A DNA stretch of 15,068 bases from NCBI GenBank assembly GCA_002390025.1, contig DGRU01000003.1:1-15068 (forward strand), written 5' to 3'. The position numbers and the translations under genes were made by a program. Below the pieces are notes generated by a model. The model was not told the origin of the DNA and made no database searches. It worked only from the letters and a program-made list of their open reading frames with translations. Positions 7,303 through 13,342 of this stretch are shown in pieces (the stretch's first letter is position 1; each line of letters begins with the position of its first letter). This DNA comes from Lachnospiraceae bacterium UBA4380. Lineage in GTDB: Bacteria > Bacillota > Clostridia > Lachnospirales > Lachnospiraceae.

Positions 7303-7427
7303 AATGGAAAACCTTATTTTGGATAACAGATAACACTGTTCTTATGCGTTTTCACAGATGATGCTTTGCGGGCAAACCGTTTTTTTTCCTTTTATTCCAG
7401 GATTGCAATTATCTCACGACGGCTGAA

Positions 7428-8390
7428 TTAACCCATGATGGCAAAGGCAGCCTGTCCGACATACATCATGCACATGATGGCGCCTTCTGCGCGGTTCAGC
7501 TGTTTTCCGGTTGAGATGAAGATAAAGGTCACCACATTGATCAGGAGCAGGAAGAGGAGGTTGACAGAGAGCTCAAAGGTGACAGGCAGCGGGTTGAGGA
7601 GAGCTGTTGTACCCAGGATGAACATGATATTGAACATGTTGGAGCCCACAACATTGCCCACGGCAAGACCGTTCTCATGCTTGAGGGATGCAACGATGGA
7701 GGTCACAAGCTCGGGGAGAGATGTGCCGATTGCCACGATGGTAAGTCCCACCAGAGTTTCCGACATTCCGAAGAAGTAAGCGATGGACTTTGCCGAATCG
7801 ACAACGGCCTGGCCGCCGATCACGATGAGCGCGATGCCGACGATCATGATGAGGATGCACTTTTTGAGCGAAATGTTTTCCTGAGCGGCTTCTTCCTCCG
7901 TCTGGCTGTGCATTGCGTTGCGGACCAGAAGGAACATGTAAACTGCGAATACGATCAGAAGAGCAAGACCCTCAAATCTGCTGATCGTTCCCACGGTACT
8001 GCCCGCTGCACGGCCTGCGATCAGTCCGCCGCCGAAGATCAGGACCAGGACAGTTATCAGGATGGAGAGCGGGAAATCTCTTTTGAGGATTTCCGATGAT
8101 ACCGGCACAGGAGAAAAGAGTGCGCAGAAGCCCAGAACGACGAGCAGGTTAAATATATTGGATCCGATCACGTTGCTGAGGGCAATCTCATTGGAATGAT
8201 TGAGTGCAGCGGTTGTACTCACGGCAAGCTCGGGAGCGCTGGTTCCGAATGCCACAATGGTGAGGCCGATGATCAGGCTGGGCACATGGAATTTCTTCGC
8301 CAGAGAGGCGCTTCCGTCCACGAAAAAGTCCGCACCCTTTACCAGAGCTGCAAATCCGATGATCAGTACCAGAAAGTTTACAAAAATCAT
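7428..8390 (-). CDS. CaCA-family calcium/sodium (or Mn) antiporter, YrbG type
   Basis: A 320-aa membrane exchanger with the two inverted alpha repeats of the CaCA family. GTSAPE (residues 49-54) with GSNIFN (76-81) in the first half is matched by GTSLPE (222-227) with GSNMFN (249-254) in the second. About ten hydrophobic helices flank a polar central loop near 160-178 (HSQTEEEAAQ). Members exchange Na+ or H+ for Ca2+ or other divalent cations. ATG 8390 is preceded by AGGAGG 14 nt upstream, which is rather far, but no better in-frame start exists. The leader contains a yybP-ykoY riboswitch, so expression is probably manganese-responsive and Mn2+ export is a plausible job. The gene is monocistronic, ending towards the terminator at 7275-7302. 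Confidence 0.93.
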   Translation of the reverse strand: MIFVNFLVLIIGFAALVKGADFFVDGSASLAKKFHVPSLIIGLTIVAFGTSAPELAVSTTAALNHSNEIALSNVIGSNIFNLLVVLGFCALFSPVPVSSEILKRDFPLSILITVLVLIFGGGLIAGRAAGSTVGTISRFEGLALLIVFAVYMFLLVRNAMHSQTEEEAAQENISLKKCILIMIVGIALIVIGGQAVVDSAKSIAYFFGMSETLVGLTIVAIGTSLPELVTSIVASLKHENGLAVGNVVGSNMFNIMFILGTTALLNPLPVTFELSVNLLFLLLINVVTFIFISTGKQLNRAEGAIMCMMYVGQAAFAIMG

Positions 8391-8964: not shown

Positions 8965-9061
8965 AATATGTAGCATGCAAAATGTATGCAGGTCAGTACA
9001 TGGACTGCTCAATTATTACCGCATCAAAAAAGACGAGTCACAAGAGACAAGGGGGGTTATT

Positions 9062-10627: not shown

Positions 10628-10696
10628 ACAGTAATTGCTTTCTATGTGTTTTTTACACCAGCTGCTTTTCCGGAGCAGCATGTGGAGATTGATAAA

Positions 10697-11821
10697 ATGG
10701 GCAGAATATCAGCGTTTGTTGATGCGATTTATAAGTATGAGTCCCAGTTCAAAGAGCAGTATGTCCTTGAGGAGGACCAGTTCCTTCCCTCGAAAGATGT
10801 GATCGAAAACATATGTCAGACTCTGCTGGACGTCAGCTGCATGCGCGAGGAAGGGCGCTTTCCCTCCTTCAGGGTATGCTTTATAAAGCCGGATTCGGAT
10901 CTGCTCTCTGCCTATGTCTATGCACATGCGCTTCTTTTCGAGAATCCGACAGAATTCAACAGCAGGAATCTTCATAAGCTTGCACCCGCCCTGAACCCCG
11001 ATATGAGTTATCTGATCGTGGATGTCAGTACCAGCCCTTTTCAGATGATCGGAATCATCGCCGCTTATACCGCCTGGGAAAAGATCCTCACAAAAGAGAT
11101 CACGACCGGCAACAGGATGCCCAAAATCCCGAATCTGTTTGTCAACGGCCCGGGAGAGCTGGGGGCATGTCTTGGAGAGGCGGCCGTTGTCAACTATTCT
11201 TCAGGCCACTGTGTTTTTTTCCGCACAGATACTTTCACATCAACGCTGGTAGCCGAACGGCTGAAAAAAGATTCAAAAGTACCTGAGAAAGAACGCCTGC
11301 AGCTGCTTTACAGAATTTTCTGGCAGATGAGCAACTACGGCCATGGCGGCGCGGTCCTGATCGTTCCCAATGCCGAGTCCTGCAGGGAATTTATCGATTT
11401 CAAGTATCGGATGCGCAGCGGATATCTGTTTGACGATGGAGAAAATACGGAAAAACCTCTCAAGAAGATGCGCGAAAAAGAGATCGTCACCTATGCCGAT
11501 CTGATCGCAAAGCTTACCTCTGTGGACGGCTCGGTCATCCTCACAAAGGATTTCGAACTGCTGGGCTTCGGCGCGGAGACTCTTGTGGACAAGATGGAGA
11601 GCAAGCATCCCGATATGTGTTTTATCGGGTATGACAACAAGGAACAGACCTACAAGAGCTTTATGGACCAGGGAATGCGCCACAGGGCCGGCTATCGTTT
11701 CTGCAGCGCCGTAGAGGGCAGTATCGCCTTCATCGTTTCCCAGGACGGAACCATTGAGGCCTGTACAAAGCATGACGGCAAAGTTGTTGTCTATGACAAG
11801 GTTGCACTGCCTTTTATCTGA
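10697..11821 (+). CDS. DisA_N/DACNV-like putative nucleotide-sensing protein
   Basis: A 374-aa soluble protein whose C-terminal third reads like a diadenylate-cyclase (DisA_N) fold. GHGGAVLIV (215-223) corresponds to the HGALIV strand, SVDGSVIL (275-282) to the DGA motif, and GMRHRAGYRF (326-335) to GTRHRAA, followed by AFIVSQDGTI. Two signature residues differ: DGA is DGS and the Thr of GTRHR is Met. This fits a non-catalytic or altered sensor of the DACNV type better than a true c-di-AMP synthase. The N-terminal 200 residues are a separate domain with FRVCFIKPD, YLIVDVSTS and NLFVNGPGELG segments. I start at ATG 10697 (GGAG 9 nt upstream); GTG 10682 and GTG 10646 are alternatives. It is probably co-transcribed with the 95-aa gene. 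Domain assignment is from motif memory, not a search. Confidence 0.75.
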   Translation: MGRISAFVDAIYKYESQFKEQYVLEEDQFLPSKDVIENICQTLLDVSCMREEGRFPSFRVCFIKPDSDLLSAYVYAHALLFENPTEFNSRNLHKLAPALNPDMSYLIVDVSTSPFQMIGIIAAYTAWEKILTKEITTGNRMPKIPNLFVNGPGELGACLGEAAVVNYSSGHCVFFRTDTFTSTLVAERLKKDSKVPEKERLQLLYRIFWQMSNYGHGGAVLIVPNAESCREFIDFKYRMRSGYLFDDGENTEKPLKKMREKEIVTYADLIAKLTSVDGSVILTKDFELLGFGAETLVDKMESKHPDMCFIGYDNKEQTYKSFMDQGMRHRAGYRFCSAVEGSIAFIVSQDGTIEACTKHDGKVVVYDKVALPFI

Positions 11822-12063: not shown

Positions 12064-13342
12064 ATGAAAACAGTCAAATTTTTTTATGCGCACACAACAC
12101 AGGATCTGCAGGTGCCGGATGATACACCTGTCCTGACCAGCAAAGTGGATCAGCTTACCAGTGACCGCACAGGTATTGAGATCGTCCGCGAGGCCATGGA
12201 GAATCCAATCGACAGCCCCCCGGCTGTGTGAACTGGCGAAAGGAAAAGAAGACTGTGTCATCATTATCAGTGATCACACAAGACCCGTTCCCAGCAGAGA
12301 TATTCTGCCCAATATGATCCGTGAACTCAGGGAAGGCAGCCCTGACATCAAGATCACGCTTCTGGTCTCCACGGGCTTCCATCGTCCCACAACAGTGGAG
12401 GAACTCAGGAACAAGCTGGGCGATGAACTCTTTGAGGAGTTCAAGGACAATATTATTGTCCATGATGCCCACGATCCCTCCAGGAATGTCAAGGTCGGAT
12501 CCCTGCCCAGCGGTCCCGACTGCATCATCGACAAGGTGGCAATGAATACGCAGCTTCTGGTTTCTGAAGGCTTTATCGAGCCTCACTTCTTTGCCGGCTT
12601 CTCCGGCGGACGCAAGAGCATCCTGCCCGGCGTTGCGGATGCTGTCACAGTCATGGGCAATCACTGCTCCAAATTCATTGACAGCCCTTATTCCCGCACC
12701 GGTATCCTGGACCACAACCCCATGCATGAAGATATGCTGGCCGCAGCCAGGATGGCCAAACTTGCCTATATCGTAAACGTTGTCATCGATGAGGACAAAA
12801 AGACGGTTGCCGCTTTTGCAGGAAACTTTGAGACTGCCCACCGCAAGGGCTGCGATTTCATCGCAGATTATGTCTGCGTAAAACCTGCCTATGCGGACAT
12901 CGTCATCACCACAAACGGCGGTTATCCTCTGGACCAGAACGCCTACCAGTCTCCCAAGGGAATGACAGCCGGCGAAGCGACCGCAAAGGACGGCGCGGTC
13001 ATCATCATGCTGGCTTCCTGCTCGGACGGCACAGGCGGCGATTTCTTCTACCATATCATTGCGGATGAGCCCGACATTGAGACGGCCTATCAGAAGTTCC
13101 TGGCAACACCCCAGGAGAAGACCGCTCCCGATCAGTGGTGCAGCCAGATCCTGGCCAGGATCGTGCGCAAATACAAGGTGATCTTTGTCGCCAATGAGGA
13201 TCAGAAGGACATGATCGAAGGTCTGAAGATGGAATATGCTCCCAGCCTCGAGGCAGCTTATAAGCGCGCCAGAGAGATCAAGGGAGAGGATGCTTCCCTG
13301 ACCTGCATCCCCAACGGCATCTCCGTTGTCGTCAGAGACTGA
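12064..13342 (+). pseudogene. larA: LarA-family nickel-pincer lactate (2-hydroxyacid) racemase, frameshifted in a C6 tract
   Basis: Two reading frames together give a complete LarA-like protein. ATG 12064 opens a frame that ends at TGA 12229-12231 after 55 codons. The rest lies in the +1 frame, open to the stop at 13340-13342. Removing one C from the six at 12216-12221 joins them into 425 residues, the normal length for LarA. In that joined numbering SDHTRPVP (69-76) holds the conserved Asp and Arg. STGFHRP, EPHFFAGFSGGRKS and GNHCS hold the conserved His and Lys that in LarA bind substrate or the nickel-pincer cofactor. Family members interconvert D- and L-lactate or similar hydroxyacids. 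No larB, larC or larE is nearby. No good start or ribosome binding site exists to translate the second part alone. The break may be a sequencing error, a recent mutation or a phase-variable switch. Confidence 0.88.

Follow-up and report, generated by a model that had tools for sequence, protein, structure and literature searches.

The window analysed here is the whole stretch of 15,068 bases at C87:1-15068 of the draft genome G000. Two overlapping frames on its forward strand make up what is, judging by its sequence, one gene for a LarA-type nickel-dependent lactate racemase with a broken frame. The N-terminal frame (12064..12231) runs from an ATG at 12064 to a TGA at 12229-12231 and encodes 55 aa in 55 codons. 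The C-terminal frame (12161..13342) is open from a GTG at 12161 through 13342 and carries LarA sequence from about 12218 to its stop. The two frames change over at a run of six C (12216-12221, forward strand), where the codons read AGC CCC CCG GCT GTG TGA in one frame and GCC CCC CGG CTG TGT GAA in the other. A tblastn search with the ORF of the sister genome G054 as the query placed the frame change at 12215-12219. The preliminary description had joined the two frames at this run, and both the codons and the tblastn result bear this out. A single intact frame of about 425 codons is not found in the window, as the frame changes at 12216-12221. The size of about 425 aa proposed earlier agrees with 15 complete frames of the same genus, which begin at the usual MKTV-type start and are mostly 424-425 aa long. 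Beyond the C6 break, the window larA has no additional stop or shift, in line with the earlier statement that the gene is otherwise undamaged. A T7 run in codons 6-8 (12079..12085, forward strand) is intact in the window, and the base directly 3' of it is lost in G054. The gene is the sole LarA match found in G000.

The C-terminal frame scored 546.1 bits against the NCBIfam LarA profile NF033504 (cut-off 460), and the Pfam search found both Lar domains in it. The N-terminal piece matched positions 2-53 of the LarA profile weakly (E 8.7e-5, under the cut-off), and the Pfam search gave no family for it. The stretches DHTRP, TGFHRP and HFFAGFSGGRK of the C-terminal frame, with conserved Arg and His, align with PDB 5huq and all lie 3' of the break. 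The available part of PMC11851776 describes active-site roles for an Arg and two His in LarAIp. On our reading of the motifs, these roles may be mapped onto the window protein. The gene resembles known LarA (NF033504; PDB 5huq, 6c1w) in its profile score, its two Lar domains and the three stretches, and differs from it in that its frame is broken at about codon 52.

Upstream of larA, the ORF at 10646-11821 (forward strand) carries a DACNV sensor domain (PF21751, E 1.1e-20). The same ORF has a sub-threshold DAC (DisA-type) match (E 3e-4) and is found in the same place in G054. It is possibly a cyclic-dinucleotide protein.

The break site in related genomes

A LarA match was found in 23 of the 62 genomes of the genus, the window's own included. 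Of 28 loci fetched from the other genus members, 23 gave a readable sequence over the site, two of them distant (22% identity); another three begin past the site and two gave no alignment. All 21 same-genus loci with at least 51% identity, which come from 20 genomes besides that of the window, are in frame at the site. The longest C run among these 21 loci is C5, and it occurs in one of them (L015), as it does in one of the 23 readable loci. The genome_contigs scan gave 64 loci, 63 of them readable, on contigs partly shared with the genus set. All 63 are in frame at the site; C5 was present in six, and C6, also in frame, in one distant locus (L090, 57%). One larA of the genus, that of G059, is in two pieces at contig ends. 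The close relatives are uncultured Lachnospiraceae and other Clostridia, some of them from the rumen, the jejunum and other gut samples.

At the site, only C3-C4 and other codons are found in the four closest relatives: AGC CCC AGG in G054 and G042, AGT CCC AGG in G033, and AGC CCT CGT in G043. They are in frame, which excludes the outcome, raised in the preliminary description, of a C6 in every relative that is compensated by a second shift. Compared with its nearest kin, the window differs at the site by one silent codon difference (CGG instead of AGG, Arg) and one extra base. Downstream of the break, the LarA of G054 has 99% protein identity with that of the window. It is a recent change and, so far as the data show, a private one.

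At the protein level, no second carrier of the shifted form was found among the best 120 of about 8000 matches or among four further matches. The nearest protein, P0001, is in frame through the site and differs from the window at 1 of 371 residues. Both observations speak for a consensus or assembly error, that is, for cells that carry an in-frame larA and for an extra base that came from a low-coverage or strain-mixed stretch. We regard such an error as possible, yet it falls short of being the probable explanation. The intact 425-aa form (P0004) is 99% identical to the window and stands for 105 member sequences in the protein lists. Oddly starting forms among the listed proteins are P0001, P0002, P0003 and P0005: P0002 (433 aa) has its start in the wrong frame, and P0001 and P0003 start at codon 28. 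Of these, only P0003 was checked on DNA (G054:C54). An excess of odd lengths in the proteins most similar to the window's was also seen among the best 120 of about 8000 matches, where 7 of the 30 proteins with at least 97% identity were not 424-426 aa long, against 7 of the 90 others (Fisher 0.043). It was given no weight: the comparison was made post hoc, contig-end fragments or the choice of start probably account for some of the rows, and ordinary copies are concealed by clustering.

Selection and the frameshift background of the assembly

In the 371 codons 3' of the break, 53 synonymous and 3 non-synonymous codons separate the window from G054. Of the changes that could be assigned to a branch, 12 synonymous and 0 non-synonymous fall on that of the window, and 15 and 1 on that of G054. 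The LarA protein thus appears to have been under selection until very recently, or to be so still. With 12 synonymous and 0 non-synonymous changes, the break is very recent or artefactual, so the wording "an error or a very recent mutation" in the preliminary description holds. These counts exclude a long period of relaxed selection; the downstream frame shows no decay, and an error fits them equally well. The window larA is like frameshift null alleles and young bacterial pseudogenes in having a single-base break, a conserved remainder and an allele private to one genome. It shows a disabling lesion where its orthologues are intact. It is unlike such null alleles and pseudogenes in that decay has not accumulated and an assembly error is possible; the remainder shows no relaxed selection (12:0), which is compatible only with a very recent lesion.

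The quality of the assembly bears on the same question. G000 contains 2,900,121 bases in 229 contigs and is 75.2% complete and 3.5% contaminated. Its fetched stretches contain 6,324 N, and a draft with such scaffold gaps gives room for an error, but there is no N gap inside the window. For the background, 567,868 bases of G000 (window included) were compared with 1,219,040 bases of G054. When 100 G054 ORFs were first audited by tblastn against G000, 10 frame-change pairs came up, and 7 did so for 110 ORFs in reverse. Six of ten frame-change sites looked at were scaffold gaps of 48-73 N. After the gaps were handled, which removed 5 gap pairs, 88 ORFs still gave 6 pairs, one of them in larA, and 103 ORFs in the reverse direction gave 3. 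None of the 8 leftover ORFs other than larA had a Pfam match, which suggests that they are not genes. Gaps of 48-73 N that lie inside ORFs and mimic frameshifts occur in the G000 stretches L148, L129, L126, L144 and L134. In L148 near 3150 and in L129 near 4390, the gap is flanked on either side by an identical short sequence.

A base-level audit covered 81 ORFs that showed a clear signature of coding (89,267 bases), in which the aligned DNA of G000 and G054 was 90.3% identical on average. Frame-shifting indels were present in 16 of the 81 ORFs. Outside larA, these indels either added up to a multiple of three or lay no more than about 60 bases from an end of the ORF, a region in which the real start or stop may be a different one. 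On a reading of the 16 listed ORFs, a clean internal single-base shift is confined to larA; with none in the other 80 ORFs, the 95% upper bound is 3.7%. The audit is a poor test of the first codons of genes and was unable to register the codon-8 lesion of G054. Exact six-base runs of C or G are also numerous (32 C6 and 22 G6, together 54 in 561,544 non-N bases of G000, the larA tract included), and they show no visible excess of breaks; two others lie in the window, a C6 at 5232 and a G6 at 9051. A frameshift-rich assembly was rejected as an explanation. The assembly is gappy yet not frameshift-rich, which moderately favours a real extra base over an error but does not prove it.

Homopolymer switching and recoding

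The preliminary description had also offered on/off switching of larA by slippage at the C run, which would act within the population. This proposal is unsupported, and we consider it very unlikely. The break does fall within a homopolymer close to the 5' end of larA, and short tracts can matter: the available parts of the sources describe a poly-C tract of Neisseria meningitidis that is C5 or C6 among strains (PMC5084427) and a hypermutable A6/A7 tract in inlA (PMC2831843). In-frame C5 and C6 tracts also occur at the larA site in some relatives (L015, and the loci of the genome_contigs scan). However, the tract is not kept in the closest kin, with their C3-C4 and other codons, no second shifted carrier was present among the matches listed, and six-base C/G runs are common in G000. 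A central-metabolism enzyme is not the usual target of phase variation, and this too stands against switching. As far as the available text of the two papers goes, poly(C)/(G) tracts are generally under-represented in coding genes (PMC2831843), and G/C tracts under 7 with one-unit variation are rated as weak candidates (PMC5084427). Compared with these contingency loci, in the parts of the papers available, larA shares the frameshift in a short homopolymer early in the gene and differs in that its tract is not kept in close relatives. A literature search returned nothing on larA phase variation or on a larC frameshift in lactate racemase.

Recoding, in which ribosome slippage on the C run would yield full-length LarA from the shifted gene, is the least probable reading and we give it hardly any credence: the C run could serve as a slip site, the frame 3' of it is conserved and, as a lead only, LarC of the same pathway matches no more than about the first 235 profile positions, with a stop inside, in seven genomes of the genus, but the relatives are in frame without such a slip site, the stop lies three codons on and not at the slip site, no strong ribosome-binding motif is seen by eye close upstream, the downstream RNA has no better fold than shuffled versions of it (z -1.04; equalled by 30 of 200), and the combination of a conserved slip site with a stimulatory stop, motif or structure that marks programmed ribosomal frameshifts was not found at the larA break.

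The sister lesion, the cofactor genes and LarA function

The nearest sister species, G054, has its own larA break, seen on its DNA, which is different from that in the window and independent of it. At the position of the window's break its larA keeps the frame; what it has lost is one base directly after the T7 run, at codon 8 (C54, L099, about 13683). The preliminary description was right about the window site; this separate break of the same gene lay outside its view. Two different larA breaks in two sister species are unexpected, being more than the low frameshift background would give.

LarA needs the nickel-pincer nucleotide, which is made by LarB, LarE and LarC according to the available part of PMC11851776. 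LarB was above the cut-off in 48 of the 62 genus genomes. A close larA (at least 77%) is carried by 18 genomes, G000 counted, and of these only G000 and G054 are missing LarB. In G054 (90% complete) neither LarB nor LarC was detected. In G000, a 75% complete draft, LarC is present and cut at a contig end, and LarB was not above the cut-off; LarB adjoins LarC in relatives such as G007 and G033, and the corresponding place in G000 is beyond the contig end. A LarE-type protein was above the cut-off in G000 and G054, not in G033. LarB is missing in 2/2 carriers of a broken larA and in 0/16 of the other close carriers (at least 77%; Fisher 0.0065). G022, G028 and G047 have an intact but more distant larA (51-57%) and no LarB above the cut-off; with them added, the counts are 2/2 and 3/19 (Fisher 0.048). 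Neither Fisher figure is a clean test, because the two broken carriers are sisters. Missing LarB is weak support for racemase loss, because its place in G000 falls off the contig end and G022, G028 and G047 have an intact larA without LarB. In G001, G014, G019, G027, G030, G034 and G055, LarC matches only the first approximately 235 profile positions and has one stop inside, a LarC1/LarC2-like split. Next to the LarE-type gene of G000 (C207, L157, 6408-7199) lies an ORF at 7344-8390 that looks transposase-like by eye.

We rank a null allele first and a local consensus error second as the best reading of these data. We believe it somewhat probable that the window larA is a recent private mutation and that the racemase may be dispensable in this clade. 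If the extra base is real, as we infer, one extra C, next to the silent AGG/CGG difference in the Arg codon after CCC, made the run C6 and shifted the frame. Translation from the ATG at 12064 would then give a 55-residue peptide that lacks the stretches with the substrate-binding Arg and the catalytic His. Before the break, the C-terminal frame offers the GTG at 12161 alone as a start, with no ribosome-binding motif seen close to it by eye, and its first ATG lies about 30 codons 3' of the break. With such poor starts an active product would be unlikely, and LarA function would be lost. Since the sister species broke the same gene independently, this small clade may be able to do without the racemase. 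That the sister pair is losing lactate racemase repeatedly and independently, by small 5' lesions in larA with the rest near-perfect and larB and larC missing or undetected, is a tentative and rather unlikely extension. If it were true, racemase loss would be an ongoing trait, differing from strain to strain.

Where a draft genome shows a one-base break in a short homopolymer, comparison with sister genomes should precede any proposal of switching. Apart from these points, the broken larA is an ordinary case. If the break is real, this strain would lack the interconversion of D- and L-lactate by LarA, which bears on the form of lactate that gut fermenters use or make.
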